A DNA stretch of 64,000 nt from Bacteroidota bacterium. GTDB lineage: Bacteria; Bacteroidota; Bacteroidia; Sphingobacteriales; Sphingobacteriaceae. Location: assembly GCA_013289045.1 (NCBI GenBank), contig JABDAU010000007.1:908-64907 (forward strand), written 5' to 3'. A program made the translations under genes and the position numbers. Below, in pieces: positions 6,917-63,203 of the stretch; the stretch's first letter is position 1, and every line of letters starts with the position of its first letter. The notes beneath the pieces are model-generated. The model was given only the letters and a program-made list of their open reading frames with translations, was not told where the DNA came from and searched no databases.

Positions 6917-8092
6917 ATGGGTATGAAAAAGAAATTATTTTTTGTTGGTTTTGGACTGTTACTGGTGAGTGCTACTGCCACGCAGGCGAACGCACAGGAT
7001 ATTACCAGCAGCCTGCAGGGGATGCAGCCGGTGCTGGAGAATGTGTATAGCCAGATGATGCCGATGTGTTCGAGCCTGATCGGTGCGGCGCAGGGGATCG
7101 CAGGGTTCGCGGCCTTATGGTATATCGCAGCGAGGGTTTGGAAACATATCGCCAGGGCGGAACCTATTGATTTTTATCCTTTGCTGCGGCCTTTCGCTTT
7201 GGGGATGTGTATCCTGTTGTTCCCGGAAGTGATTGGCCTGATGAACGGGGTGATGCAACCGATCGTGTCAACGACCCAGGGAATGGTGACGAACTCGAAT
7301 AACGCCATTGCTTTGCTGTTGCAGCAAAAACAGAATGCGATCAAAAATTCGGCAGATTACCAGATGTATGTCGGCGATGACGGGAATGGCGACCGGGACA
7401 AGTGGTACAAGTACACGCACCCTGATGATCCGAATGACCAGAACGAGGGGACGTTTTCCAGTTTGGGTAACGATGTGAAATTCTGGATGGACAAACAGGC
7501 CTATAATTTTAAGAACGATATCAAGGAATGGATGTCGGAGATATTGCAGGTGTTGTACGCGGCGGCAATCTTGTGTATCAATACGATACGGACGTTCTAC
7601 CTGATCGTGCTGGCGATATTGGGGCCATTGGTATTCGGTTTCGCGGTGTTTGACGGATTGCAGCATACGCTGGTGCAATGGATATCCCGGTATATAAATA
7701 TCTTTTTATGGCTGCCCATCGCGAACATCTTCGGCTCGATCATCGGGCAGGTGCAGCAGCAGATGATCAAACTGGATATCAACCAGATCCAAAGCAGCGG
7801 CGATACTTTTTTTTCGTCCACGGATACCTGTTACCTGATCTTTTTATGCATTGGAATTGTCGGCTATTTCTCTGTGCCAAGCGTGGCCAATTATGTGATC
7901 CATGCGCACGGCGGCAATGGTTTGCTCAACAATGTGAACAGGGTAACGCAGAGTGTGACGAATACGACGATCAGTACCGCGACCCATATGGCGGGTGCGG
8001 CACCGGAACGTTTCGGGCAGGCGATCAGTGGGGGCAGCGGCAATAACAATGGTGATAATGCTTATCAAAAATCAAGACTGGAGGGTAAGTGA
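6917..8092 (+). CDS. traJ: TraJ polytopic conjugation protein (VirB6-like)
   Basis: 391-aa polytopic membrane protein. The N-terminus has a signal-like segment (ending QANAQ), then hydrophobic segments at about residues 55-75, 90-115, and a cluster from about 205 to 320, with a long polar loop between. This is the layout of TraJ in Bacteroidetes conjugative transposons, the VirB6-type inner-membrane channel subunit. The C-terminus is Gly/Asn/Thr rich. The stop overlaps the start of traK (ATGA). An ATG two codons downstream is an equally possible start. Confidence 0.85.
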   Translation: MGMKKKLFFVGFGLLLVSATATQANAQDITSSLQGMQPVLENVYSQMMPMCSSLIGAAQGIAGFAALWYIAARVWKHIARAEPIDFYPLLRPFALGMCILLFPEVIGLMNGVMQPIVSTTQGMVTNSNNAIALLLQQKQNAIKNSADYQMYVGDDGNGDRDKWYKYTHPDDPNDQNEGTFSSLGNDVKFWMDKQAYNFKNDIKEWMSEILQVLYAAAILCINTIRTFYLIVLAILGPLVFGFAVFDGLQHTLVQWISRYINIFLWLPIANIFGSIIGQVQQQMIKLDINQIQSSGDTFFSSTDTCYLIFLCIGIVGYFSVPSVANYVIHAHGGNGLLNNVNRVTQSVTNTTISTATHMAGAAPERFGQAISGGSGNNNGDNAYQKSRLEGK

Positions 8093-12473: not shown

Positions 12474-12653
12474 ATGGACAAGATTCAGGAATTGAAAGCA
12501 TTAGTGGAGACCGCCGAAAAGGAGGGGGCAGCTTTTTATGGCAAAGGCAATAAAGCTGCCGGTACGCGTTTGCGTAACGCTTTACAACAGATAAAGGTTG
12601 TTGCGACTGATTTGCGTAAGGATGTGACGGCAAAAAAGAATGCGACTAAATAA
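12474..12653 (+). CDS. Histone H1-like (Hc1-type) protein
   Basis: 59-aa basic protein starting MDKIQELKALVETAEKEG, with AGTRLRNALQQIK in the middle and a Lys-rich end. This is the pattern of the short histone H1-like proteins of Bacteroidetes (related to chlamydial Hc1), which bind DNA non-specifically. I use the ATG at 12474; the upstream extension of the frame is not protein-like. It is the last gene before a strong terminator and closes the conjugation operon. Confidence 0.8.
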   Translation: MDKIQELKALVETAEKEGAAFYGKGNKAAGTRLRNALQQIKVVATDLRKDVTAKKNATK

Positions 12654-50572: not shown

Positions 50573-50881
50573 ATGACCAATTGCCAAACTAAAGCAGAAG
50601 TGATCATTCACCTTCAGGAGAGGGGTTACGACAATGATTTTATTCTAAAAAACGAGAGTGTTCTTTGTGTGCAGCAAAATGAGCTGATTAATCCGGATGG
50701 ATTCGAGATCACAGAGACCTACCGTTTTGACGGGCAGCCTCGTCCCAACGATAATTTTGTAATATATGCCATCAGGGAGATTAATTCTGGTATAAAAGGG
50801 ATATTGATGGCATCCTATGTTACGTTGACCAGCGGCATGTCAATCCATTTGTGGTCAAAGCTGGCTGCTTATCTCAAATAA
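50573..50881 (+). CDS. Small conserved protein (102 aa)
   Basis: Starts MTNCQTKAEVIIHLQERGYD and contains LINPDGFEITETYRFDGQPR and IYAIREINSGIKGILMASYV. It resembles a short conserved Bacteroidetes family often mislabelled as a PRPP-synthetase fragment; no enzyme motif is visible. It lies just upstream of the double TGTGA dyad and the OsmC gene. Confidence 0.65.
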   Translation: MTNCQTKAEVIIHLQERGYDNDFILKNESVLCVQQNELINPDGFEITETYRFDGQPRPNDNFVIYAIREINSGIKGILMASYVTLTSGMSIHLWSKLAAYLK

Positions 50882-50919
50882 AAATCAAACGCGCCGGAAG
50901 CGTATTCCACCATTGAAAA

Positions 50920-50933
50920 GTGACCTACATCAC
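50920..50933. promoter_or_regulatory. Crp/Fnr-type dyad, distal, osmC promoter
   Basis: GTGA-CCTACA-TCAC, matching the Crp/Fnr half-site spacing. Its centre is 37 bp upstream of the centre of the proximal site. Together the two sites form a long inverted repeat (GTGACCTACATCACAT and its complement). Confidence 0.65.
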
Positions 50934-50955
50934 ATAAACGTTGCCCTTCACTGAA

Positions 50956-50971
50956 TGTGATGTAGGTCACA
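50956..50971. promoter_or_regulatory. Crp/Fnr-type dyad, proximal, osmC promoter
   Basis: TGTGA-TGTAGG-TCACA, a perfect Crp-type consensus. Its centre lies 37.5 bp upstream of the G of a TTTG -7-like element (50998-51001), which places it near -43, the position of a class II activator site. Confidence 0.72.
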
Positions 50972-51037
50972 CAGATGCGTGAATTTTCCTCCGGTAATTT
51001 GTCATACAATTTAAAAATCAAATAAAAAAACAACACC

Positions 51038-51457
51038 ATGAAACGTACAGCAAAAGCACATTGGAATGGCAGCCTCAAAGAAGGTAAAGGAGAAATATCT
51101 TCTCAAAGCACCGTCCTTAATCAAACACCTTATTCGTTTAAAACACGGTTCGAGTCAGGTATCGGTACCAATCCCGAAGAGTTGATAGCCTCGGCACACG
51201 CAGGCTGTTTTACCATGTCGGTAAGTGCTGCCCTGGGGCAGTCAGGCTTCACAGCCAACGACTTGAATACCGATGCCACGCTGGAAGTGGATCTGGTAAA
51301 CCTGATGATCACCGGTATTCATCTGGAATTGACAGCATCATTGATCGACGGGGTATCAGCTGAGCTTTTCCAGCAAATCGCAGAAGGCGCCAAAGCCAAT
51401 TGTATTGTAACCAAAGCGCTAAGTGTGCCCATTACTTTAAGTGTTTTATACCAATAA
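51038..51457 (+). CDS. OsmC family peroxiredoxin-like protein, copy 1
   Basis: 139 aa. OsmC/Ohr fold with the redox cysteines in [10 protein letters not shown] and KANCIVTKAL, and the N-terminal [18 protein letters not shown]. These enzymes reduce organic hydroperoxides in the cytoplasm. It has a close paralogue at 61899. The promoter carries two Crp/Fnr-type dyads; a hairpin follows the gene. Confidence 0.9.
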   Translation: MKRTAKAHWNGSLKEGKGEISSQSTVLNQTPYSFKTRFESGIGTNPEELIASAHAGCFTMSVSAALGQSGFTANDLNTDATLEVDLVNLMITGIHLELTASLIDGVSAELFQQIAEGAKANCIVTKALSVPITLSVLYQ

Positions 51458-51470
51458 TAACGCGAATTAA

Positions 51471-51502
51471 TACCAGGTAGTTACAAATTCAACTACTTGG
51501 TA
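51471..51502. terminator. Hairpin after osmC copy 1
   Basis: Stem TACCAGGTAGTT / AACTACTTGGTA (12 pairs, one G-T) with an 8-nt loop, 13 bp after the stop codon. It is followed by AAAGAAT rather than a T run. Confidence 0.6.
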
Positions 51503-51551
51503 AAGAATGGCAGAAGATAGAAACTATATGTGCACCTGAAATGGAAATGGC

Positions 51552-52475
51552 ATGAAGCATCAATTTTTTAACATGAAAATGGAATCGGAAATGACATTCA
51601 GAAATCCCGTAAATGGAGAATTGGGCTTCAGAATAATGTATTTTGAAGATGATAAACATTTTAAGGAAGTTCAAAGGCTTCCCTTCTTTTCTATTATCCT
51701 CATATCAGAAGGAGACGGTACATTAAAAGCCGACTTTACTGATTATCGAATTTCAAAAAGGGCGCTATTATTCTTTTCGCCCTACCAGCCATTTATGATC
51801 AATGGCGCCGCGCTAAAAGGAGTGATGATTAATTTTCATCCCGATTTCTTCTGTATTTTCAGGCATCAAAACGAGGTTGCTTCCGACGGTATACTTTTTA
51901 ATAACTCAAATAACCCGCCCTTTTTCATTATACCCGAAAATGAAAGTGCTTCGATTTGCGGTATAATAGAGCATATAGCAGCCGAAATGTCAATTGCCGG
52001 TCTTGCTCAGCACGACCTCCTGATCGCATACCTTAAAATATTATTGATCAGGGCTATCCGAATAAAGTTTTTAAAAGAGACAGTGGCCATACCGTTCGAT
52101 CCGAGCCCAACTGAGGCTGTCCTTTTACGCCAGCTTACAAGAATGATAGAGCTGCATTACAAGACGAAACATAGCGGGGGTGAGTATGCAGAACTATTGA
52201 ATATACCGGCAAAAAGACTCGGTAGGATCGTCAAAAATCATTTCCAAAAGACCCTGACTGAAATAATAGCCGAAAGGATCATTATGGAAGCTAAAAGGCA
52301 GTTGAACTTCACATCCGGTACCTTAAGAGAAATTGGTTACGACCTGGGTTTTAGTGATGAATATCACTTCAGCAGGTATTTTAAAAACAAGATGAAGATT
52401 TCGCCCCAGTCATTTAGAAATTTATTAAGGAACACCCATGATCGGTTATTGGTGCCGGCCCAATTGCAAGATTGA
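51552..52475 (+). CDS. AraC family transcriptional regulator
   Basis: 307 aa. A cupin-like N-terminal sensory domain (about 20-160) and a C-terminal AraC-type double HTH (about 205-300): ELLNIPAKRLGRIVKNHFQK, then LREIGYDLGFSDEYHFSRYF and KISPQSFR. It probably controls the nearby hydrolase and reductase genes in response to an unknown ligand. Confidence 0.9.
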   Translation: MKHQFFNMKMESEMTFRNPVNGELGFRIMYFEDDKHFKEVQRLPFFSIILISEGDGTLKADFTDYRISKRALLFFSPYQPFMINGAALKGVMINFHPDFFCIFRHQNEVASDGILFNNSNNPPFFIIPENESASICGIIEHIAAEMSIAGLAQHDLLIAYLKILLIRAIRIKFLKETVAIPFDPSPTEAVLLRQLTRMIELHYKTKHSGGEYAELLNIPAKRLGRIVKNHFQKTLTEIIAERIIMEAKRQLNFTSGTLREIGYDLGFSDEYHFSRYFKNKMKISPQSFRNLLRNTHDRLLVPAQLQD

Positions 52476-52645
52476 ATTTACAGGTCGGGGTCATTTTTAA
52501 GTAATCACCTGAGAAGAGCTGTCATAGCGTAGTCAGGACACCAATTCTAAGGAAAATCGTCCATCATTTTGGGATGTTTAGCCATTAAAACGGTCATTTT
52601 TTACGAATAATTTAGTCCAATATTAATCCATAGAAAAACAAAAAA

Positions 52646-53437
52646 ATGAAAACAAGATCCATTAAAATCGGCGTGTTAAATAAATTTTTAATCGCAGCAT
52701 TCGTTATTGTCAGCAGCCTGCTGATAAGAGTTAGCCAGGTATCAGCTCAAACTGCTCCTATAAAAAACATCGTGATCGTGCATGGCGCATTTCAGGATGG
52801 TTCAGGGTGGAAGGCTGTTTACAACATACTTACAAAAAAAGGTTATCATGTAACCATCGTTCAAAATCCTCTGACCTCATTAAACGATGATGTTGAAGTG
52901 ACTAACCGCATACTTGATCAACAGGATGGGCCGGTAGTACTGGTAGGCCATTCATGGGCTGGTGTAGTAATTACCCAGGCAGGTGTACATCCCAGGGTTG
53001 CCTCATTAGTTTATGTGGCCGCTTTTGAGCCGGATAAGGGCGAAACCGCAAATTCATGGTCACAGACTCAGGCAAAAGCACCTTCAATGCGTGTTACAGC
53101 AGATCCAAAAGGGGTTGTTTTTTTTGACAGAACAACCTTCCATGAAGGTTACTGCGCCGATCTTCCTAAGGCTTTGGCAGATTTCATGAACGCTTCACAG
53201 CAGCCTATTGTAGGATCATGCTTTGGTACCACTGTAACCGAAGTGGCCTGGAAAACAAAGCCAAGTTACGGGATAGTGGCTACTGAAGATCATGCCATCA
53301 ACCCGATAATAGAGCGTAATATGTATAAAAAAGCAAATACTAAGATCACCGAGATTAAAGGTAGCCATGCTGTGTTTATTTCGCAGCCTGAAGCAGTTGC
53401 GGCAGTGATTATCAAGGCCTCGTATGCAAAGCACTAA
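52646..53437 (+). CDS. Exported alpha/beta hydrolase
   Basis: 263 aa with a signal peptide (site near SQVSAQ). Catalytic Ser in the nucleophile elbow VGHSWAG, oxyanion region IVIVHGAFQDGSGW, and the C-terminal His in KGSHAVFI. This matches the salicylate-esterase-like hydrolases. Substrate unknown; the enzyme should be periplasmic. Confidence 0.85.
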   Translation: MKTRSIKIGVLNKFLIAAFVIVSSLLIRVSQVSAQTAPIKNIVIVHGAFQDGSGWKAVYNILTKKGYHVTIVQNPLTSLNDDVEVTNRILDQQDGPVVLVGHSWAGVVITQAGVHPRVASLVYVAAFEPDKGETANSWSQTQAKAPSMRVTADPKGVVFFDRTTFHEGYCADLPKALADFMNASQQPIVGSCFGTTVTEVAWKTKPSYGIVATEDHAINPIIERNMYKKANTKITEIKGSHAVFISQPEAVAAVIIKASYAKH

Positions 53438-53460
53438 CCAAACTTATTCTGACTAGATCA

Positions 53461-53495
53461 AATGCCCGATATCCCTTTTACCGGAATCGGGCATT
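53461..53495. terminator. Hairpin between hydrolase and msrA
   Basis: Perfect 10-bp stem AATGCCCGAT / ATCGGGCATT with a 15-nt loop, 23 bp after the hydrolase stop. Confidence 0.65.
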
Positions 53496-53644
53496 GATTG
53501 TAACAGGCAACTGATTATGGGCTTTGTAATATTGTTTTCCAATTATTACAAGGCTTTATCTTCTATCAAATCACCTCATTATTAATCAAAATCTCGAATA
53601 GACCAAAGCAGATGTCTGTTTGATTTTTAAACTATCAACTTCTT

Positions 53645-54301
53645 ATGAAAAGGTTCTTTTTATTTGGCATCGGAGTTTTATTATTTGCCGGTGTCGCCAA
53701 TGCACAAATAGCAGGTGGTAGTAAAGATTTTACCTCATTGCCAAAACCTGCTCCGGGAGAAAAAGTAGCCACTTTTGGCGGAGGCTGTTTTTGGAGTATG
53801 AGCGAGGCTATGTCTGAGCTAAAGGGTGTAAACAAGGTAATATCGGGTTATGCTGGCGGAACAACTAAGAATCCGACTTATGACCAGGTAGCATCACTTA
53901 CTACCGGGCACGCTGAATGCTCACTAGTTTATTATGATCCAAAGGTGATCAGTTTTGAGACGATAGCCCGGGCATTCTTTTTTGCACATGATCCTACGGA
54001 GCTTAACCGGCAGGGCCCTGATGTGGGTACCGATTATCGTTCGATCGCCTTTTACCGGACCCCTGAAGAGAAAAATATCATAATGGGTTTGATAAAAGAG
54101 ATCAACAAATCAAAGCATTACTCCAAAGCGATAGTTACACAGGTTGTTCCGTTTATTGCATTCTATCCCGCCGAAAATTATCACCAGGGGTATTACCGGC
54201 TCAATCCGGGTTCAACTTATATTATGCAGGTCTCAAAACCCAAAGTGATGAAATTCAGAAAAGCTATGCACGGGGAATTAAAGCCGGAGTTCCAAAAATA
54301 A
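53645..54301 (+). CDS. msrA: Peptide methionine sulfoxide reductase MsrA (exported)
   Basis: 218 aa. Signal peptide ending near GVANAQ, then the MsrA catalytic motif FGGGCFWSMSEA with Cys48, the YAGGTTKNPTYDQV segment and HAECSLVYYDP, AENYHQGYYRLNPG. It reduces methionine-S-sulfoxide in proteins. The export signal places it in the periplasm. It is close to the MsrP-like/cytochrome b pair, suggesting envelope protein repair. Confidence 0.93.
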   Translation: MKRFFLFGIGVLLFAGVANAQIAGGSKDFTSLPKPAPGEKVATFGGGCFWSMSEAMSELKGVNKVISGYAGGTTKNPTYDQVASLTTGHAECSLVYYDPKVISFETIARAFFFAHDPTELNRQGPDVGTDYRSIAFYRTPEEKNIIMGLIKEINKSKHYSKAIVTQVVPFIAFYPAENYHQGYYRLNPGSTYIMQVSKPKVMKFRKAMHGELKPEFQK

Positions 54302-54386
54302 TATTCGTTACATAAATAACTTAACAGGACTTATTTAAATCCATTACAAATGAAAAAAAACAAATAGGATATTTAGGATTGCGGTA

Positions 54387-55313
54387 ATGCTTATTGCATC
54401 TACCTTAAGCTATCACACCTCATTTTCAAGAAATATTATTGCTCAGACTGCGATAACTAACGGTACAAAACCAGCATTGCCGCCCAAAGGTTTTTCCAGC
54501 CAATATGCAATTGTAAACGGCGTAAAGATACATTATGTGATCGGCGGACATGGAACACCACTTATGCTGGTACATGGATTCCCGCAAAATTGGTATATGT
54601 GGAATAGGTTACTTCCCGAACTGTCAAAACATTTCACCGTAATTGCTCCGGATTTGCGTGGTGTTGGAGAGTCCGGTAAACCACAAGGTGGTTATGACAA
54701 AAAAAATATGGCTATCGACCTGCACGAACTTGCAAAAAAGCTTGGTTATAAGAAGATTGATATAGCCGGGCATGATATCGGTATGATGGTTGCCTATGCT
54801 TATGCAGCGCAATTTCCTAACGAGGTTAATAAACTCGCCTTACTGGATGCACTAATACCCGGCGTGGAACCGGTTTGGAGCCAGGTTAAAGCCCAGGCCT
54901 GGTGGTTTGGATTTTTTACTCAGCCACATTCGAGCGAAGTTGCAGAGGGAAGAATGAATTTATTTTTGGAAGATTTTTTTCCGGCTGTAAGTTTCGTGCA
55001 GAACTCATTTACTACCAGGGAAAAAGCTGAATTTACCCGGGCGTATTCGGTAAAAGGTGCAACGAGAGCTTCGTTTCTTTGGTTTGTATTTGAGCAAGAC
55101 ATTAAAGACAACGAGGAATTTCGAAAAAATAAGTTGGCGATGCCTGTATTGGCAATGGGATCAGACCATTTTGCACCCTTTTTGGGAGCACATGTCCGTT
55201 TGGTTGCTTCCAATGTAAAAGATTGTACAATTACAGGTTCGGGGCATTGGATTGTTCAGGAACGAACTGAGCAGGTACAAAAAGGGCTGTTGGAGTTTTT
55301 CATGGAAAGGTAA
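54387..55313 (+). CDS. Alpha/beta hydrolase (dehalogenase/epoxide hydrolase-like), signal peptide frameshifted
   Basis: 308 aa as an intact frame. Nucleophile Asp in IAGHDIGMMV, HGFPQNWYMW oxyanion segment, DLRGVGESGKP, and final His in GSGHWIVQE. The in-frame ATG at 54387 gives a poor signal with no basic start. An ATG at 54350 followed by eight A residues would give MKKTNRIFRIAVMLIA and a complete signal peptide if the run had seven A, so the start is frameshifted by one base. The catalytic part is unaffected. Confidence 0.8.
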   Translation: MLIASTLSYHTSFSRNIIAQTAITNGTKPALPPKGFSSQYAIVNGVKIHYVIGGHGTPLMLVHGFPQNWYMWNRLLPELSKHFTVIAPDLRGVGESGKPQGGYDKKNMAIDLHELAKKLGYKKIDIAGHDIGMMVAYAYAAQFPNEVNKLALLDALIPGVEPVWSQVKAQAWWFGFFTQPHSSEVAEGRMNLFLEDFFPAVSFVQNSFTTREKAEFTRAYSVKGATRASFLWFVFEQDIKDNEEFRKNKLAMPVLAMGSDHFAPFLGAHVRLVASNVKDCTITGSGHWIVQERTEQVQKGLLEFFMER

Positions 55314-55352
55314 GTTGCATTACAAGCTCAGCGGTGATAAACGAACGGCCAA

Positions 55353-56060
55353 ATGAAAGTCATTAAAGAAAAACATCCGCTGGTAATGAGATGGACGCAC
55401 TGGGTAAATTTCCCTATCCTGGCCATTATGATCTGGAGTGGAATGCTGATCTATTGGGCAAATGATGAATATTCCATCACCATATTCGGGCATACTTTTG
55501 TCCGCTTCTTTCCCGATTGGTATTATCATCTGCTTCACATACCCCAGCGCCTGGCTGAAGGAATGGCGTTCCATTTTCTGTTTATGTGGTTTTTTGCATT
55601 AAACGGATTTTTCTACGTTTTGTACACGATCATCTCTGGCGAGTGGCGGCAATTGGTGCCCAACCGTCATTCGTTCAGAGAGGCCTTCCTTGTAGTGTTG
55701 CATGATCTTCACATCCGCAAAACCGCGCCGCCGCAGGATAAATACAATGCAGCCCAGCGCATTGCCTACACCGCCATCATTATCATGGGGTTTGGTTCGC
55801 TGCTTACAGGCCTGGCTATTTATAAACCTGTTCAGTTTAATTGGCTGTGTTGGGCGTTCGGCGGTTATCATTTAGCCCGGATATGGCATTTTGCATTGAC
55901 CATCGGTTATGTTTTATTTTTCCTGATACATATTACGCAGGTTATTCTTGCCGGGTGGAACAATTTCAGATCGGTGATTTCCGGATTTGAGATAATGAAC
56001 GAGGAACCCGAACCCATCATAGAAATTAAACCGTCAGATGATGAAAAACCTATTCAGTAA
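55353..56060 (+). CDS. Cytochrome b561-type membrane subunit
   Basis: 235 aa with four to five membrane segments and conserved histidines (HPLVMRWTHWVNFPIL, FHFLFMWFFALNG, ARIWHFALTIG, LIHITQVILAGW) that would ligate two b hemes. It is the electron-donating membrane partner for a molybdoenzyme. It overlaps the downstream MsrP-like gene by 23 bp, a strong sign of a two-subunit complex. Confidence 0.87.
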   Translation: MKVIKEKHPLVMRWTHWVNFPILAIMIWSGMLIYWANDEYSITIFGHTFVRFFPDWYYHLLHIPQRLAEGMAFHFLFMWFFALNGFFYVLYTIISGEWRQLVPNRHSFREAFLVVLHDLHIRKTAPPQDKYNAAQRIAYTAIIIMGFGSLLTGLAIYKPVQFNWLCWAFGGYHLARIWHFALTIGYVLFFLIHITQVILAGWNNFRSVISGFEIMNEEPEPIIEIKPSDDEKPIQ

Positions 56061-56838
56061 AAAAAATAAGGCCCCCAAAAACCCGCTTACTGTTGAGCAA
56101 AAGATCAAGCGCAGAAATTTTATCTCGTTTGCTGTTTTTGGCGCTTATGCTGCCGGTGCTTATGGCGGCTGGCGATGGTTATATAAATCACCCGGTGAAA
56201 CTCCGGGCATAACTGCCGGCGCCCGTAAGCCGCTGCGTAGGGCACTCAACAAAACCGAGCTGTTCTTCAGAAGGTTGACCTTTAACGAAAATCACCTGGT
56301 GAAAACTTACCCCCGTTCAATGGCGGCCAAAAAAATAAGACATAACAGCGACATTGGCTCGGAAGGTGTAATGCCGCCCGAATACTGGAAACTTCAGGTA
56401 AAAAAGATCTCGGGCGAAACTTTGCAGATCACGCTGGATGAATTGATGACATTGCCAAGAACAGGTATCACCTATGATTTTAAATGCGTTGAGGGCTGGG
56501 ACCAGATATCGCATTGGGAAGGGGTGAGTTTCCGTGATTTTATGACCCACTTTAAACTGGAAGCCGAATCAAAGATGGACTATGCAGGCATGGAAACTCC
56601 CGATAAGCAATACTACGTAGGGATTGACATGCCAAGCGCCATGCATCCGCAAACATTACTGGCCTACCAGATGAACGATGAATTATTGAATGGTAACCAC
56701 GGGCAACCTCTCCGCCTGATCATCCCGGTGAAGTACGGCATCAAAAACCTGAAACGTATCGGAACGATCACCTTTAGCAACAGCCGTCCGCGCGATTACT
56801 GGGCTGAGCAGGGATACGATTATTATTCAGGATTATAA
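56038..56838 (+). CDS. MsrP-like molybdopterin oxidoreductase
   Basis: 266 aa. The N-terminus has a twin-arginine-like KRRNFIS followed by a hydrophobic stretch, so it is probably exported or anchored. Sulfite-oxidase fold with the Mo-ligand Cys150 in DFKCVEGWDQ, plus PPEYWKLQV and PLRLIIPVKYGIKNLKRI. It is paired with a cytochrome b gene as MsrP is with MsrQ. Methionine sulfoxide repair in the envelope is inferred from fold, export and the nearby MsrA. Confidence 0.82.
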   Translation: MMKNLFSKKNKAPKNPLTVEQKIKRRNFISFAVFGAYAAGAYGGWRWLYKSPGETPGITAGARKPLRRALNKTELFFRRLTFNENHLVKTYPRSMAAKKIRHNSDIGSEGVMPPEYWKLQVKKISGETLQITLDELMTLPRTGITYDFKCVEGWDQISHWEGVSFRDFMTHFKLEAESKMDYAGMETPDKQYYVGIDMPSAMHPQTLLAYQMNDELLNGNHGQPLRLIIPVKYGIKNLKRIGTITFSNSRPRDYWAEQGYDYYSGL

Positions 56839-57066
56839 CTGTAGCGGATTAGTAATCTGCGGAGCAGAACACAATATCTGCGGCTAAATGAAAAAGACCT
56901 GTAGGCTTAATTTGATAACGGTATATCATATAATTTAGCGACATATCAATTTTCTAATTAGTCCTAAAAATGTCTAAGTCATTGATCCCGAATAGGTAAG
57001 CTGCTGGCATAAAAGTAGGTTACCGAATAACACAGAAATCAAATATTAATTAAAATCAATTTTACT

Positions 57067-57906
57067 ATGAACCAATCTATTAAAACCAGCCATCCTGAAT
57101 ATATCGAGGTGGCGGAAAATGTTCGCCTCCATGTTACCGATGTTGGCAATGGCAGGCCTGTAGTACTTATTCACGGTTTCCCGCTAAGTGATGAAATGTA
57201 TGAATATCAATATAGCGCACTTGCCAGGGCCGGATTCAGGGCTATTGGGATCACCATGAGGGGTTTCGGTCATTCAGACAAACCCGGCGAAGGATATAGC
57301 TATGACACCTATGCCGACGATATTAAGGCTGTCCTGGAACAACTTGATTTGGAAAATGTAGTGCTTGGCGGCTTTTCAATGGGAGGCGCCATTGCGATAC
57401 ATTACATGGCCCGGCATCACGCAGCACATGTAAGCAAACTGGCATTGTTCGCCGCTGCTGCCCCTTGCTGGACGAGACAGCCGGACTTTGAATATAGCTA
57501 TTTTACCAAAGATGATATCAGCGGGCTTGTTGCACTCGCCGGCGTTAACCGTCCTGCTCTTTATGAAGAGTTCGGTAAACTGTTTACAGCAACGAGTACT
57601 TCTGTTACTGAGGGTATCGGTGCGTGGCTGGGTAGTATAAATTTTCAGGCTTCTGGCTTTGCCGTGCAGCAAATACTTGCCGTTCTTCGTGATGCGGACG
57701 AAAGAGAAAGCTTAAAAACCATAAAAGTGGAAACCTTAATTCTGCAGGGCCGGGAGGATAAGATAGTGAGCTATGAACTTGCCGAACAGCTTCATAAAGC
57801 TATTCGTAATTCAAAACTTGTTACCTTCGAAAACAGCGGTCATGCATTATTTGTAGAAGAACTTGGTAAGTTTAATAGCGAACTCATAGAATTTGCAAGT
57901 AACTAA
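57067..57906 (+). CDS. Alpha/beta hydrolase
   Basis: 279 aa, no signal peptide. Catalytic Ser in GGFSMGGAIA, oxyanion segment VVLIHGFPLSDEMYEYQ, TMRGFGHSDKPG, and His in ENSGHALFVEE. It resembles cofactor-free haloperoxidase/esterase proteins. It precedes the Crp/Fnr gene by about 130 bp. Substrate unknown. Confidence 0.87.
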   Translation: MNQSIKTSHPEYIEVAENVRLHVTDVGNGRPVVLIHGFPLSDEMYEYQYSALARAGFRAIGITMRGFGHSDKPGEGYSYDTYADDIKAVLEQLDLENVVLGGFSMGGAIAIHYMARHHAAHVSKLALFAAAAPCWTRQPDFEYSYFTKDDISGLVALAGVNRPALYEEFGKLFTATSTSVTEGIGAWLGSINFQASGFAVQQILAVLRDADERESLKTIKVETLILQGREDKIVSYELAEQLHKAIRNSKLVTFENSGHALFVEELGKFNSELIEFASN

Positions 57907-58039
57907 GATCTGACTATAATGCGTTGACTACAATGGTCATAGGAAGTCCAGGGGGGCTTTGCTGTGGCCATTTTGTTTGCGTAAAATAAAACGTCAAAAA
58001 GTCAATTATTATCGTTTTGCCCTTAACTTAGTATATACA

Positions 58040-58612
58040 ATGGAAGCCAAAGAAATATTAAAAACCCATGTTGCTAAACTTGCTTCGCTGACCGACGACC
58101 AGTTCGAATACTTCTTTTCGTTTTTTAAAAAACAGCATTTTAAAAAGGGGCAGGCGATCATCAGCGAGGGCGATGCGGTCGATTGCGAATATTTTGTGAT
58201 TTCGGGCTGCCTGAAATCTTTTTTTATCAATGATGACCTGAAAATGTTCATCCTTCAGTTTGCCATGCCAACCTGGTGGGCCTCCGACTATAATGCTTTG
58301 TACAATCATACCCGCGCTACTATTAGCGTTGACTGCATCAGCGACACCGAAGTGCTTTGCCTTAGCAATGCCGACAGGGAAAAACTGTGCAGCGAACTTC
58401 ATCAGGCAGAGCATTTTTTCCGCTGGCGAACCAATAAAGGCTATGTCGCCGCTAATAAAAGACTGCTGTCTTTTATGAACAACAATGTAAAATGCCGGTA
58501 TGAAGAGCTTTTAAAACTATACCCGGAACTTTATAATATAGTGCCAAAAACACTAATTGCCGCCTACCTTGGTGTGTCCAGGGAGACGCTAAGCCGGTTA
58601 CATCAAGCGTAA
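58040..58612 (+). CDS. Crp/Fnr family transcriptional regulator
   Basis: 190 aa from the ATG at 58040. Cyclic-nucleotide-binding-type beta barrel (about 20-115: KGQAIISEGDAVDCEYFVIS), then a dimerisation helix and a C-terminal HTH (ELYNIVPKTLIAAYLGVSRETLSRL). The family often recognises TGTGA-N6-TCACA dyads, and two such dyads start 2 bp after its stop codon. I infer that it regulates the yceI and osmC promoters. No Fe-S cysteine cluster of Fnr type is visible. Confidence 0.85.
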   Translation: MEAKEILKTHVAKLASLTDDQFEYFFSFFKKQHFKKGQAIISEGDAVDCEYFVISGCLKSFFINDDLKMFILQFAMPTWWASDYNALYNHTRATISVDCISDTEVLCLSNADREKLCSELHQAEHFFRWRTNKGYVAANKRLLSFMNNNVKCRYEELLKLYPELYNIVPKTLIAAYLGVSRETLSRLHQA

Positions 58613-58614
58613 GA

Positions 58615-58630
58615 TGTGATCTGCATCACA
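58615..58630. promoter_or_regulatory. Crp/Fnr-type dyad, distal, yceI promoter
   Basis: TGTGA-TCTGCA-TCACA, full consensus, beginning 2 bp after the Crp/Fnr stop codon. Its centre is 37 bp from the proximal site, the same distance as at the osmC promoter. Confidence 0.7.
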
Positions 58631-58651
58631 TAATATGCGTGCTTTTCTGAA

Positions 58652-58667
58652 TGTGATGTAGGTCACA
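58652..58667. promoter_or_regulatory. Crp/Fnr-type dyad, proximal, yceI promoter
   Basis: TGTGA-TGTAGG-TCACA, identical to the proximal site at the osmC promoter. The centre is 37.5 bp upstream of the G of a TTTG -7-like element (58694-58697), again the same distance. Confidence 0.72.
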
Positions 58668-58722
58668 CAGCTACCCGGAATTTCCTACCCACCTTTGTTT
58701 TGTTATTCAAAACATAAAGAAA

Positions 58723-59241
58723 ATGGAAAATCAAAAATTTAAAATCGTAGCTACCCAAAGTAACATTGACTGGGTGGGCAAAAAGGTAACCGGTGCACAC
58801 AATGGTACCATAGCAGTTAAGGAAGGTGAACTCGTTTTAAACGACGGTAACCTTGCCGGCGGTAAATTTATCATCGATACTACTTCCATCAAAATACTGG
58901 ATATAACCGACCCGGCAACTAATGCGCAATTCTTCGGTCACCTGGCATCTGATGATTTCTTCTCTGTTGAAAAATACCCCGAGGCAACTTTGGAGATCAC
59001 AGCTGTTTCAGGTAAACATATCGAAGGGGACCTTACTATTAAAGGCATTACCCACCCGGCAGAATTTGATGCAGCAGTTAATATTAACGGCGATGTATTA
59101 ATTGCGACCGGCAAGCTGGTGATCGACCGTACCAAATACGGTATGAAATTCCGCTCAGGTAATTACTTTAAAGATTTGGGCGATACCCTGATCTATAATG
59201 AATTTGAACTCAATATAAGTATAACCGCTAAAGCCGCTTAA
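58723..59241 (+). CDS. YceI family protein
   Basis: 172 aa, no signal peptide. YceI lipocalin-like pattern: DWVGKKVTGAHNGTI, FIIDTTSIKILD, GHLASDDFFSVEKYPEATLE, GDLTIKGITHPAEFDA, DRTKYGMKFRSG. These proteins bind isoprenoid-type lipids and are induced by stress. It is the first gene after the double dyad promoter and probably leads an operon reaching at least to 60226. Confidence 0.92.
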   Translation: MENQKFKIVATQSNIDWVGKKVTGAHNGTIAVKEGELVLNDGNLAGGKFIIDTTSIKILDITDPATNAQFFGHLASDDFFSVEKYPEATLEITAVSGKHIEGDLTIKGITHPAEFDAAVNINGDVLIATGKLVIDRTKYGMKFRSGNYFKDLGDTLIYNEFELNISITAKAA

Positions 59242-59270: not shown

Positions 59271-59492
59271 ATGCCATACGTAAAAATAGAAGTAACCCGT
59301 GAAGGAGTCACCAGGGAACAAAAACAAGCCCTTATTAAAGGGGTAACTGACTTGCTGAGTGACGTATTAAACAAAGATCCTCAGCTAACCTATGTAGTGA
59401 TACAGGAATTTGACCTGGACGACTGGGGCCATAATGGAGAACAGGTATCTGTGCTAAGGGAAAAAGGTATAACCGCTGAAAGAAAGAAATAA
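59271..59492 (+). CDS. 4-oxalocrotonate tautomerase family protein
   Basis: 73 aa, MPYVKIEVTREGVTREQKQA: the Pro after the start Met is the catalytic amino-terminal proline of the family. Small cytoplasmic keto-enol tautomerases. Its stop overlaps the ATG of the SDR gene by 1 bp (TAATG), so the pair is coupled. Confidence 0.85.
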   Translation: MPYVKIEVTREGVTREQKQALIKGVTDLLSDVLNKDPQLTYVVIQEFDLDDWGHNGEQVSVLREKGITAERKK

Positions 59493-60226
59493 TGAAGAAG
59501 CAAACAATAATAGTTACAGGTGCCTCATCCGGCATCGGTAAAGAAATAGCCCGGCACTTTTTAGCAAAGGGCGACAATGTTGTGATCAATTCCTCAACTG
59601 CTGAAAAGCTGGAACAGGTTTACGAAGAACTTGGCGGAGGTGAAAACCTTGCCATGGTGGCCGGTAATGTATACGATAAAAATACCGGTGAACAGCTTTT
59701 GGCCGCCGCACTCGACAAATTCGGCTCGGCAGATGTGCTGGTGAACAATGCCGGCATATTTGAAACCAAGCCCTTCCTTGAGGTGGACGAAGCTTACCTC
59801 GATCGCTTTTTAAATACAAATCTGAAAGGTACTTATTTCACCACACAGGCCATTATTCCTCAAATGCTGAAGCAACATGACGGCGTAGTGATCAATATCG
59901 GTACACCTTTGGTCAATCACGGTCTTGGCGGAGTGCCCATCACTGCACAAATGGCATCAAAAGGAGCAGTACATGCACTTACTATACAACTGGCGGCAGA
60001 GTTTGGTAAGGATAATATCAGGGTAAATACGATTGCGCCCGGCACGATCCGTACGCCCATGCATGGTGATAATGCCGATCAAACTGCAGGTTTACACCTG
60101 CTGAACCGTGTTGGTGAGGTGGCGGATATTGCAGAAATGGTTTATACCGTTGCAAAAAGCTACTTTATTAATGGGGCCATTATTAATGTAGACGGTGGTT
60201 TGGGAGCAGGACACAATCTCAACTAA
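59492..60226 (+). CDS. SDR family oxidoreductase, copy 1
   Basis: 244 aa. Classical short-chain dehydrogenase with TGASSGIG cofactor motif, NNAG (VLVNNAGIFE), and C-terminal NGAIINVDGG. At the active site the usual Tyr-x-x-x-Lys is altered: the segment is ITAQMASKGAVHAL, with Met at the Tyr position, so catalysis may be impaired or different. NAD(P)-dependent, cytoplasmic. Confidence 0.88.
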   Translation: MKKQTIIVTGASSGIGKEIARHFLAKGDNVVINSSTAEKLEQVYEELGGGENLAMVAGNVYDKNTGEQLLAAALDKFGSADVLVNNAGIFETKPFLEVDEAYLDRFLNTNLKGTYFTTQAIIPQMLKQHDGVVINIGTPLVNHGLGGVPITAQMASKGAVHALTIQLAAEFGKDNIRVNTIAPGTIRTPMHGDNADQTAGLHLLNRVGEVADIAEMVYTVAKSYFINGAIINVDGGLGAGHNLN

Positions 60227-60227
60227 T

Positions 60228-60677
60228 ATGAAAACGCTTTTGTTGACCGCTTTTTTGTCCTGCACATTGCTGGTATCAAAAGCACAAAACTTAAATAAAA
60301 TGGAAACAAACCAGGATTCAACAGCAATCAGTCAGGCACTGGAAAGCTATTACTTCAAAGGTATTTATGAAGGTGATGTCAATTTACTGGGACAGATCTT
60401 CCATCCCGGTATTTTACTGTTCGGAGATGTGAAGGGACAACCTTATGCCAAAACCCTCGGGGAATATTTGGATGGCGTTGCTCACCGTCAAAGTCCGAAG
60501 GATTCCGGAAAGCCTTTTAAAGGGATGGTCATCTCCATCGATGTGGTGAACTCTATAGCTGTCGCAAAAGTGCATGTCAAAATGTACGATTTTAACTATG
60601 ACGAGTTTCTTTCCTTTCATAAGATCAGTGGCCATTGGCTGATCGTCAATAAAATGATCAGCGACGTTTCAGAATAA
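60228..60677 (+). CDS. NTF2-like (lumazine-binding type) secreted protein
   Basis: 149 aa from the ATG at 60228, with a signal peptide ending near VSKAQ. NTF2-like fold: ALESYYFKGIYEGDVNLLGQ, PKDSGKPFKGMVISIDVVNS, FLSFHKISGHWLIVNK. Such proteins bind small ligands or act as enzymes. It starts 1 bp after the SDR stop, hence same transcript. Confidence 0.8.
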   Translation: MKTLLLTAFLSCTLLVSKAQNLNKMETNQDSTAISQALESYYFKGIYEGDVNLLGQIFHPGILLFGDVKGQPYAKTLGEYLDGVAHRQSPKDSGKPFKGMVISIDVVNSIAVAKVHVKMYDFNYDEFLSFHKISGHWLIVNKMISDVSE

Positions 60678-60685
60678 ATTACAGT

Positions 60686-61774
60686 ATGATGTGGTATCAA
60701 ACAAAAGCATCTGAAATATTGGGTATTCAATACCCGATCCTGCAAGGGCCGTTCGGTGGTAACCTGTCTTCTGTTGAGTTGGTATCAACGGTGTCGAATG
60801 CCGGAGGGCTTGGGGGCTACGGCGCCTATACATTGAGCCCGCAGGAAATTATTGAAATAGATCAACGGATCAAAGCGGCAACCAATAAACCCTATAATGT
60901 CAACCTGTGGGTTTCCGATACGGATGCCGCAGACGGCACAGTTTCGGATGAACAGTTTAAACAGGCTCAAATTCTATTCAAGCCTTATTTTGACGAGCTG
61001 GGAATTGGGTTGCCCGAAAAACCGGCACCATTCAAATCCCGGTTTGAAAACCAGGTGGAAGTTATCCTGCATCAGAAACCGCCTGTATTCAGCTTTATGT
61101 TTGGTGTCCCATCCGCTGATGTTCTTGAACAATGCCGCAAATTGGGTATCAAAACTATCGGAGCGGCCACTACTTTAGATGAGGCCATCTATCTGGAAAA
61201 CGCCGGTGTTGACCTAATCATCGCATCAGGCTTTGAAGCAGGCGGGCATCGTCCATCATTCCTTGCACCAGCTGAATCGTCAACAATTGGAACGTTTGTA
61301 CTGGTCCAGCTGATCAAAGAGAAGGTAAAGACACCAGTCATAGCCGCAGGCGGTATCGCTAACGGAAAAGCTGTTGCCGCAGCATTAGTCCTTGGCGCGG
61401 ACGCCGTCCAGATCGGTACTGCATTCCTGGCAACAGACGAGTCGAACGCCACTGCCATTCACAAACAAATGCTCTTTTCGGATGCGGCTAAATATACAAC
61501 ACTCTCGCGGGCATTTACCGGGAGGCTGGGCAGGGGGATAACCAGCCGCATTGCAAACGAACTGGTAAACAAAGAAAAAGGGTTTCTCCCGTTCCCGCTT
61601 CAAACGCAGTTTATCTCGCATTTAAGAAAAGCCGCTATCGAGCAGGAAAAGTGGGATATGATCTTATTCTGGGGCGGCCAGATAGCTCCTGTACTGAAGC
61701 ACAAAAAAGCCGGCGAACTGATGATATCCATACTGGAAGAAACCACGGCCTGCTTTAACCAATTACGGGCCTGA
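60686..61774 (+). CDS. Nitronate monooxygenase
   Basis: 362 aa. FMN-dependent 2-nitropropane dioxygenase fold: GIQYPILQGPFGG at the start, VSNAGGLGGYG, SGFEAGGHRPSF with the likely catalytic His, PVIAAGGIANGKAVAAAL, and GADAVQIGTAFLATDES for FMN phosphate binding. It oxidises nitronates to carbonyl compounds and nitrite. It follows the NTF2-like gene by 8 bp. Confidence 0.92.
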   Translation: MMWYQTKASEILGIQYPILQGPFGGNLSSVELVSTVSNAGGLGGYGAYTLSPQEIIEIDQRIKAATNKPYNVNLWVSDTDAADGTVSDEQFKQAQILFKPYFDELGIGLPEKPAPFKSRFENQVEVILHQKPPVFSFMFGVPSADVLEQCRKLGIKTIGAATTLDEAIYLENAGVDLIIASGFEAGGHRPSFLAPAESSTIGTFVLVQLIKEKVKTPVIAAGGIANGKAVAAALVLGADAVQIGTAFLATDESNATAIHKQMLFSDAAKYTTLSRAFTGRLGRGITSRIANELVNKEKGFLPFPLQTQFISHLRKAAIEQEKWDMILFWGGQIAPVLKHKKAGELMISILEETTACFNQLRA

Positions 61775-61898
61775 GATAGCAAAAGCGATCTATTTTTAAC
61801 TCCGAAGGGAATTATTACAATACATGTACAGTGATTATAACCGTGCACCGGGTAACTATTTTTTAGAAACTAATTTTTTAACCAAACAAAAACAAAAA

Positions 61899-62318
61899 AT
61901 GAAACGCACAGCACAAGCACATTGGAGCGGTAGCCTGAAAGAAGGCAAAGGAGAGATATCCTCACAAAGCACCGTCCTTAACCAAACACCCTATTCTTTT
62001 AAAACACGGTTTGAATCCGGAATAGGTACTAATCCCGAAGAATTGATAGCCGCAGCACACGCAGGCTGTTTTACCATGTCGGTAGGCGCAACGCTTGAGC
62101 GGGCAGGTTTTTTAGCCAACGACCTGAACACCGAAGCCACGCTCGAAGTAGACCTGGTTAATCTGATGATCACCGGCATTCATCTGGATTTAAAAGCATC
62201 AGTTATTGACGGCGTATCGTTTGAAGCCTTTCAGCAAATTGCAGAGGGTGCTAAAGCCAATTGTATTGTATCCAAGGCACTGAATGTGCCCATTACTTTA
62301 AGTGTTACTTACCAATAA
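61899..62318 (+). CDS. OsmC family peroxiredoxin-like protein, copy 2
   Basis: 139 aa from the ATG at 61899; the upstream part of the frame is not conserved with copy 1. It is a close paralogue of the protein at 51038 over its whole length, with both redox cysteines ([10 protein letters not shown] and [10 protein letters not shown]). Unlike copy 1 it has no TGTGA dyads upstream, so regulation has diverged. It likely reduces organic hydroperoxides. Confidence 0.9.
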
Positions 62319-62363
62319 TATTGGTAGGTTCCTTTTTACCAGATACTATAAAAATATAATATC

Positions 62364-63203
62364 ATGAACATTTCAAAAGTATGGTATGTAACCGGGGCTT
62401 CCCAGGGATTGGGACTCACCCTCGTAAAAAAACTGCTCGAAAACGGCTACAGGGTTGCCGCAACCTCACGCGATGCACATACGCTGAGCCAGGCGGTCGG
62501 CTTGATAGACAAGGACCGTTTTCTTCCACTAGCTGTCGATCTGAACAACCTGGATTGCATTGATGAATCCATACAGCAAACGCTGGCTGCATTTGGGCGG
62601 ATAGACGTAGTGGTTAACAACGCGGGATATGGAATGACGGGAACATTGGAAGAAACACCGGAGCAGGATATCCGTAACATCTTCAATGTTAACGTGCTGG
62701 CAACAATGGATGTGGTAAAAAGCGTGCTACCGGTAATGCGCAGACAGCGATCAGGTTATATCATTAATATCGGCTCGGCAGCGGGTTTTGTGGGGGCTCC
62801 CGGCTGGTCGGTTTATTCGGCTACTAAAGCCGCCGTTGCTGCTTTTTCCGAAGTTATCGCGCTGGATGTAAAAGAGTTTGGAATTAAAGTTACGGTAGCA
62901 GAACCATCGGGCTTTCGGACAGGCTTTTTGACGAATAATTCGCTGGCACTCATCTCATCCAAAGTCGAAGGCTATGAAGCAGTTAAAAATACCCAAGACC
63001 GTTACCTTTCAGCGAATGGACAACAACCAGGCGACCCCGGCCGTGCATCTGAAATATTTATGGAATTAGCTGAAAGCCCCGAACCGCCGATGCACCTGTT
63101 TCTCGGAAACGATGCCTATAAACGCGCTTCAAAAAAACTATCCGAAATGTCCGCAGAATTGGAGCAATGGAAATCGATAACTATCGGGGCAGATTTCAAG
63201 TAA
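62364..63203 (+). CDS. SDR family oxidoreductase, copy 2
   Basis: 279 aa. TGASQGLG cofactor motif, VVNNAGYGMTG, catalytic Ser in INIGSAAGF and Tyr-x-x-x-Lys in VYSATKAAV, so the active site is complete. It is a classical NAD(P)-dependent enzyme of the cytoplasm. It begins 45 bp after the OsmC gene. Confidence 0.9.
   Translation: MNISKVWYVTGASQGLGLTLVKKLLENGYRVAATSRDAHTLSQAVGLIDKDRFLPLAVDLNNLDCIDESIQQTLAAFGRIDVVVNNAGYGMTGTLEETPEQDIRNIFNVNVLATMDVVKSVLPVMRRQRSGYIINIGSAAGFVGAPGWSVYSATKAAVAAFSEVIALDVKEFGIKVTVAEPSGFRTGFLTNNSLALISSKVEGYEAVKNTQDRYLSANGQQPGDPGRASEIFMELAESPEPPMHLFLGNDAYKRASKKLSEMSAELEQWKSITIGADFK

Follow-up and report, generated by a model that had tools for sequence, protein, structure and literature searches.

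Two promoters in a 64,000-nucleotide stretch of a Bacteroidota genome (family Sphingobacteriaceae; GenBank assembly GCA_013289045.1, contig JABDAU010000007.1, positions 908 to 64,907; hereafter the window) raise the question of whether a small Crp/Fnr-type protein of 190 amino acids, encoded beside one of them, controls both by a common mechanism. One promoter precedes osmC and the other yceI, and an earlier note on this DNA, made from the letters alone, described in front of each gene a double TGTGA-N6-TCACA dyad of shared geometry, with the regulator gene ending just before one of the sites. These observations proved exact to the base. The dyad centres lie at 50926.5 and 50963.5 (osmC) and at 58622.5 and 58659.5 (yceI), that is, 37 base pairs (bp) apart in both promoters, both proximal sites read TGTGATGTAGGTCACA, the distance from the proximal centre to the G of a TTTG is 37.5 bp in both (hereafter the TTTG ruler), and the Crp/Fnr gene indeed stops 2 bp short of the distal yceI dyad (Table 1).

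The explanation that we consider probable is a local one-component stress switch, in which the 190-residue protein would activate the yceI and osmC promoters in a class II-like manner. Under this scenario, the protein would bind as a dimer to a dyad of the form AATGTGAT-nTAn-RTCAC, which is near the E. coli CRP consensus; the active dimer, centred at about -42.5, would take the place of the -33 element and directly activate the housekeeping RNA polymerase, and the outputs would be the yceI-tautomerase-SDR-npd-osmC-SDR operon (npd being a FabK-like gene that we take to encode a nitronate monooxygenase) and the osmC group. Many relatives in Mucilaginibacter, Pedobacter and Chitinophaga would have a second dimer bound 3.5 helical turns (37 bp) upstream of the first, as an optional helper that either offers an extra contact for the alpha subunit of the RNA polymerase or raises occupancy. 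The signal suggested by the target genes would be electrophiles or organic peroxides, perhaps sensed via C99 and C117. Recognition of the dyads by the 190-residue protein appears strongly supported by the comparisons below, and what we say of the distal dimer as a helper and of a thiol signal is guesswork.

The assembly of the organism itself comprises 3.75 Mb and is 63.5% complete, so that the motif counts in it are lower bounds. The exact TGTGA-N6-TCACA dyad was found at 3 places, all three among the four dyads of the window, and TGTGA-N2-TA-N2-TCAC-N27-TTTG at 2 places, which are the two promoters of the window. When the central TA was not required, GTGA-N6-TCAC-N27-TTTG gave 3 exact matches, the third on contig C24, and 22 matches with at most one mismatch (19 of these with one), against 8 for the reversed control; the dyad GTGA-N6-TCAC by itself occurred at 44 places, against 20 for its reversed control. 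The analysis did not reveal a motif that is widespread and unrelated to promoters, the outcome that the earlier note had named as contrary to its reading, and, given the 20 further looser matches, the regulon in this genome may be larger than two promoters. Within the 64-kb window alone, there is no excess of dyads when up to two mismatches are allowed (19 seen, 23.8 expected), and hence it is the exact sites, together with their geometry and the comparisons with relatives, that give the motif its significance.

For the comparison with relatives, loci were selected by the Crp protein alone, without reference to the sites: the best 79 loci of 221 confirmed Crp relatives in named genomes, with at least 75% identity, from Mucilaginibacter, Pedobacter, Chitinophaga, Puia, Niastella, Flavobacterium, Dyadobacter, Olivibacter and other genera. 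The pattern GTGA-N6-TCAC-N27-TTTG is present in 78 of the 79, mostly before yceI, and in the remaining locus (L129) the gap, read by eye, is 26 bp. Among the distinct sites of these loci, 89 lie 27 bp from a TTTG, 29 lie at 64 bp (the distal sites, 27 + 37) and 15 at 1 bp, with 11 or fewer at any other distance; the distance from the TTTG to the start codon varies from 20 to 40 bp while the gap between the proximal site and the TTTG is fixed at 27 bp in 78 of 79 loci. The pair spacings in the same loci are 37 bp (29 cases), 27 (four), 38 (three) and 36 (one), with no other between 15 and 90 bp, and the exact pair is absent from all 25 Flavobacterium loci of the set and likewise from many Pedobacter loci. 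In a second collection, of 17 ortholog loci likewise picked without regard to the sites, 12 have the pair and the TTTG (two of them with one mismatch) and five the proximal site and the TTTG alone. These sets are not additive: 11 of the 17 loci are on the same contigs as members of the 79 (six are new), and 16 of the 58 pair-chosen loci overlap with the 79 as well.

A direct search of 400 genomes from the order for two GTGA-N6-TCAC sites at a spacing of 22-52 bp found the pair in 86 (12 for the reversed control). Pair places were taken from 66 of the 86 matching genomes (75 places), and in the 64 that were fetched or already lay in the window, the spacing is 37 bp in 54, 36 in five, 38 in two, 47 in two and 48 in one. 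The 11 places outside this tally (G009, 34 bp; G032, 23; G219, 26; G203, 47; G308, 31; G240, 47; G169, 29; G223, 27; G360, 23; the second place in G254, 23; G097, 22) include six that were checked at short loci, where the ruler was found only in L020 (from G032); the G219 pair (L023, gap 26 bp) sits inside an open reading frame. Altogether 44 pair places are located directly before yceI, mostly with a Crp gene close upstream, the common order in relatives being crp - pair - yceI - tautomerase - SDR - npd - SDR, and in every one of the 44 the G of the TTTG is 37.5 bp past the proximal centre, while the distal spacing varies (36-38, 47 and 48 bp). Among the pair promoters of other genes (osmC, that of the window included, SDR, AraC-type and unnamed genes), which were found without requiring a TTTG, the ruler is present in 17 of 19, with an overlapping second pair in L102 counted together with the first; the two misses, read by eye, are each one letter off, TTTT in L089 and TTCG in L099. 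In a phylum-wide draw of 395 genomes, in which few close genera were drawn, the oriented pair with the TTTG was recovered from the own genome only. Of the precise shared geometry described in the earlier note, the rigid 37.5-bp distance from the proximal site to the -7 element stands; the distal site at 37 bp turned out to be dispensable and, on these comparisons, is lineage-limited, occurring at 36-38 bp, also at 27 and 47-48 bp, and once at 23 bp.

The distribution of the sites follows that of the regulator. When 130 genus genomes were scored for the Crp protein (hits with E values of 1e-40 or better), the scores split into 46 genomes with 306-431 bits (70-100% identity), which we treat as ortholog-positive, and paralogs with 196 bits or less. 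The site with the TTTG was found in 43 of the 46 ortholog-positive genomes against 4 of the 84 others (Fisher p about 5e-26, kinship ignored). In the 95 genomes covered by both searches, a pair at 36-38 bp is present in 26 of 31 ortholog-positive and in none of 64 ortholog-negative genomes (p about 1e-18, kinship again ignored); if spacings of 47-48 bp are included, the counts become 29 of 31 and 2 of 64, and for any spacing of 22-52 bp, 29 of 31 and 5 of 64. Two genomes, G203 and G240, carry 47-bp pairs without a TTTG at the ruler position. The proposal of a single regulator with a shared mechanism is thus supported both by this co-occurrence and by the recurrence of the ruler in other promoters.

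The co-occurrence also favours the adjacent Crp/Fnr gene, the candidate of the earlier note, as that regulator, with the qualification that the motif is not private to one protein. In four loci (L218, L219, L220 and L020) a Crp paralog with a score of 159-179 bits lies directly before a site with the 27-bp gap to the TTTG and a RidA (L-PSP) gene, forming a sister module (in L020, the order is Crp paralog - site - RidA; RidA was called by Pfam in L218 and L220 and by likeness in L219). In L218, L219 and L220, which come from three ortholog-negative genomes (G316, G073 and G179), the site is located just after, or overlaps the end of, a Crp paralog, before a RidA gene, and three paralogs with scores of 190-196 bits share with the regulator the recognition-helix segment SRETLSRL. 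Since paralogs adjoin the same site and ruler, the geometry extends to a broader circle of Crp proteins that have the recognition helix in common, and the sites could be read mainly by one or more of these paralogs, the adjacent gene being only one of the readers. This alternative seems unlikely to us given that the sites track the ortholog of 70-100% identity, that three of the four ortholog-negative genomes (of 84) with the site and the TTTG have it beside a paralog, and that none of 64 ortholog-negative genomes has a 36-38 bp pair.

The properties of the protein agree with a place in the CRP/FNR superfamily. PF00027, a cNMP-binding-type beta roll, is the only Pfam family detected in the 190 residues (2.1e-10), and an AlphaFold model (mean pLDDT, the predicted local distance difference test, 78; pTM, the predicted template modelling score, 0.68; computed from an alignment with a depth of only 39) aligns over residues 1-190 with CRP/FNR structures at Z scores of 14-18. 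Both the N-terminal beta roll and the C-terminal helix-turn-helix that define the superfamily are present, the latter without a Pfam match, the last helices of the model aligning with those of CAP. Residue 190 pairs with CAP residue 189 (1cgp and 1g6n; 190 in some entries), and the protein therefore stops after the recognition helix. This helix is nearly invariant, all 124 distinct orthologs having R181, E182 and R186, and the register of the fold puts these residues on CAP R180, E181 and R185, which we take to be the residues that read TGTGA. Of the cysteines, C117 is conserved in 124 of the 124 orthologs, C99 in 123 and C57 in 116. Positions 92 and 93, which by sequence reading only we assume to match CAP R82 and S83, hold K in 56, R in 39, P in 13, V in four, S in two, A in two and other residues in the rest at the former position, and A in all 124 at the latter; no clear cAMP (cyclic AMP) motif is apparent in the regulator, and its score against the NCBIfam CRP equivalog PRK11753.1 is 20 bits, below the cut-off of 266. 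The listed genus genomes each have from 5 to 45 Crp-like genes as first-look candidates, not all of them confirmed.

The predicted promoter positions follow from Flavobacterium psychrophilum, for which a map of transcription starts places the sigma-A box TAnnTTTG at -12 to -5 (PMC9723704); with this placing, the proximal dyads would be centred at about -42.5 and the distal ones at about -79.5. The proximal site would then cover the place of the -33 element, and this position alone would also be compatible with repression, the dyads being an operator on which the regulator blocks RNA polymerase until a signal releases it. We find this reading still less likely than that of a paralog, because a repressor does not need an exact phase, whereas the rigid 37.5-bp ruler combined with a weak core suits an activator: the TAnn is poor, and the promoter consensus shows no conserved TTG, presumably the -33 element, where one would be expected.

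As for the distal site, in 99 promoters remaining after 75% clustering, part of which had been selected by the 22-52 bp pair search, exact distal sites occur at spacings of 27 bp (two), 36 (four), 37 (46), 38 (four), 47 (two), 48 (one) and 74 (one, a third site), and at none other between 15 and 116 bp. The spacings of 27, 36-38 and 47-48 bp would fit a helical phase, against which stands the second site at 23 bp in L020; the cases other than 37 bp are few and may represent two lineage events. The notion that 37 bp provides exactly one slot for the C-terminal domain of the alpha subunit midway between the dimers was dropped, as it leaves the spacings of 27 and 47 bp unexplained. One locus (L102 from G267, positions 8001-8088) has three tandem GTGA-N6-TCAC sites at intervals of 37 bp, the last followed by a TTTG at 37.5 bp. 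That the geometry merely reflects descent from one yceI promoter, without constraint, is hardly credible: most of the loci are orthologous crp-yceI regions, and the two promoters of the window are alike in 56-61% of their spacer bases, where non-redundant promoters average 40-43%, so that one may derive from the other, but the ruler is kept in 17 of the 19 non-yceI pair promoters while neighbouring lengths vary, and it also recurs in aldo/keto reductase, MFS and RidA promoters, although the pattern that retrieved these already contained the ruler.

Several observations weigh against the proposed switch. Three ortholog-positive genomes (G224, G375 and G413) are without the strict pattern of site and TTTG, each having a looser pair with a TTTG at +37.5, and 9 of 98 ortholog entries, drawn from overlapping sets, are without the site and TTTG within 1.5 kb downstream; in G208, which has no Crp match at an E value of 1e-40, an AraC-type gene follows the site and TTTG at a distance of about 200 bp. 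Paralogs with the same recognition helix are present in these genomes, so that other Crp proteins could bind the sites. None of the 79 crp genes has an exact site within 300 bp upstream, and autoregulation thus gives the link no support. The locus sets overlap and are related by descent, so that the counts are not independent, and conservation of TAnn in the -7 box is incomplete. Finally, it is from position only that we infer activation rather than repression.

Table 1. Predicted regulatory sites and genes of the osmC and yceI regions (window coordinates)
Feature	Coordinates	Strand	Remarks
Distal dyad, osmC promoter	50919..50934	+	AGTGACCTACATCACA, one mismatch to full dyad; predicted centre ~-79.5
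Proximal dyad, osmC promoter	50956..50971	+	predicted centre ~-42.5; TTTG at +37.5
TTTG of -7 element, osmC promoter	50998..51001	+	predicted transcription start ~51006
osmC, OsmC family peroxiredoxin	51038..51457	+	TIGR03562
AraC-type regulator, downstream of osmC	51552-52475	+	
Alpha/beta hydrolase, downstream of osmC	52646-53437	+	
msrA, downstream of osmC	53645-54301	+	
Crp/Fnr-type regulator, 190 residues from its ATG	58040..58612	+	cNMP_binding domain, co-occurrence with sites, CRP/FNR fold; proposed binder of all four dyads
Distal dyad, yceI promoter	58615..58630	+	exact dyad
Proximal dyad, yceI promoter	58652..58667	+	exact dyad, TTTG ruler
TTTG of -7 element, yceI promoter	58694..58697	+	predicted transcription start ~58702; position kept in 44/44 yceI pair promoters
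yceI	58723..59241	+	YceI-like domain
Tautomerase, probable yceI operon	59271-59492	+	
SDR, probable yceI operon	59492-60226	+	
Lumazine_bd_2 protein, probable yceI operon	60231-60677	+	
FabK-like protein, probable yceI operon	60686-61774	+	scores under FabK cut-off
Second osmC, probable yceI operon	61899-62318	+	
SDR, probable yceI operon	62364-63203	+	

We infer that osmC, the AraC-type gene, the hydrolase gene and msrA (51038..54301) are co-transcribed; the same order follows a site with the TTTG in two loci of relatives (L222 and L229), and the last three genes follow a pair in another (L081). The genes at 59271..63203 are probably the rest of the yceI operon, and most of this gene order recurs in relatives. 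The second osmC was found in the window dyad scan to have no matching site of its own; as it lies inside the probable yceI operon, both OsmC copies may be under pair promoters. In one relative (L060 from G287, 12478-12528), an intact pair promoter precedes an osmC reading that, by eye, stops after a few codons and is followed by the hydrolase gene and msrA. Between the two promoters of the window, at 55353-56838 and with msrA nearby, there is a cytochrome b561-type and molybdopterin oxidoreductase gene pair, which we take to be YedZY-like. Directly before the osmC promoter is a gene for a 102-residue protein (50573-50881) without a Pfam match; L060 and L113 have homologs of it close to the module.

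Other targets were read at 13 second places of the site and TTTG in ortholog-positive genomes and at the 4 exceptions. The second sites precede osmC in four loci, aldo/keto reductase genes in six, and a Lumazine_bd_2 protein gene and an MFS transporter gene in one each, the one remaining locus being too short for the target to be read; one osmC, one reductase, the Lumazine_bd_2 protein and the transporter were identified by Pfam, and the remaining reductases and osmC genes by likeness. Judging from the family names, the target set looks as if it served to protect the cell from peroxides, aldehydes and further electrophiles.

The module resembles E. coli CRP in the R-E-x3-R recognition helix. 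Tandem CRP sites in E. coli work best on the same face of the DNA. Two components of the proposal, CRP-type class II activation and Bacteroidota regulators of the CRP superfamily that do not use cAMP, are already known (for the latter, BT4338 as described in PMC6989115). The likeness to E. coli class II promoters includes the TGTGA-N6-TCACA dyad and a site near -42, the value of -42.5 in the window depending on the F. psychrophilum box; in E. coli, the usual class II position is -41.5, and activation from a single site depends on the face of the DNA (PMC2859248). The module differs from this system in its TAnnTTTG-type promoter, in a protein that ends after the recognition helix and has no clear cAMP motif, and in its local regulon. 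E. coli class III and tandem-site promoters likewise combine a single promoter with two upstream sites of the CRP type, but the typical class III site is at -93.5 (PMC5957442), whereas the upstream site of the module would be near -79.5, with the 37-bp (3.5-turn) form the commonest. BT4338 (MalR/Cur) of Bacteroides thetaiotaomicron, with the motif wwwTATGTTnTAnAACATAwww, is a Bacteroidota activator of the CRP superfamily that is not thought to use cAMP and whose dyad has the same nTAn centre; its half-site differs, and it is a global carbohydrate regulator, in contrast to the local detoxification switch proposed here (PMC6989115). Among the open-access papers listed in our searches, none deals with this regulator, motif or regulon, and the accessible part of PMC8510549 does not mention the motif.

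The best solved relative by sequence is a cyclic nucleotide binding regulatory protein of Cytophaga hutchinsonii (PDB 3dn7; 90 bits, 27% identity), which is also the top match by fold (Z 18.4, root mean square deviation 3.2, 147 aligned residues). Its recognition-helix segment is TPEYLSEI, against SRETLSRL in the regulator, and we know of no function for it.

A broader generalization can be offered only tentatively, as one that may well prove wrong: small Crp proteins of the Bacteroidota, wingless and independent of cAMP, could form a family that recognizes the consensus of E. coli CRP, each member running a neighbouring detoxification operon (yceI/osmC, aldo/keto reductase or RidA) by a fixed class II ruler, with electrophiles or peroxides sensed by C99 and C117. 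Some lineages would have added a second dimer at half-integral phase (27, 37 or 47 bp; 2.5, 3.5 or 4.5 turns), on the opposite face of the DNA, unlike the usual same-face tandem. In several genera of Bacteroidota, the module connects a Crp-type regulator with a precisely defined site, an exact position in the promoter and stress genes that form a coherent set, and its natural spacing variants (no distal site, 23, 27, 36-38 and 47-48 bp) provide material on how a second CRP-type dimer would help a TAnnTTTG-type promoter.

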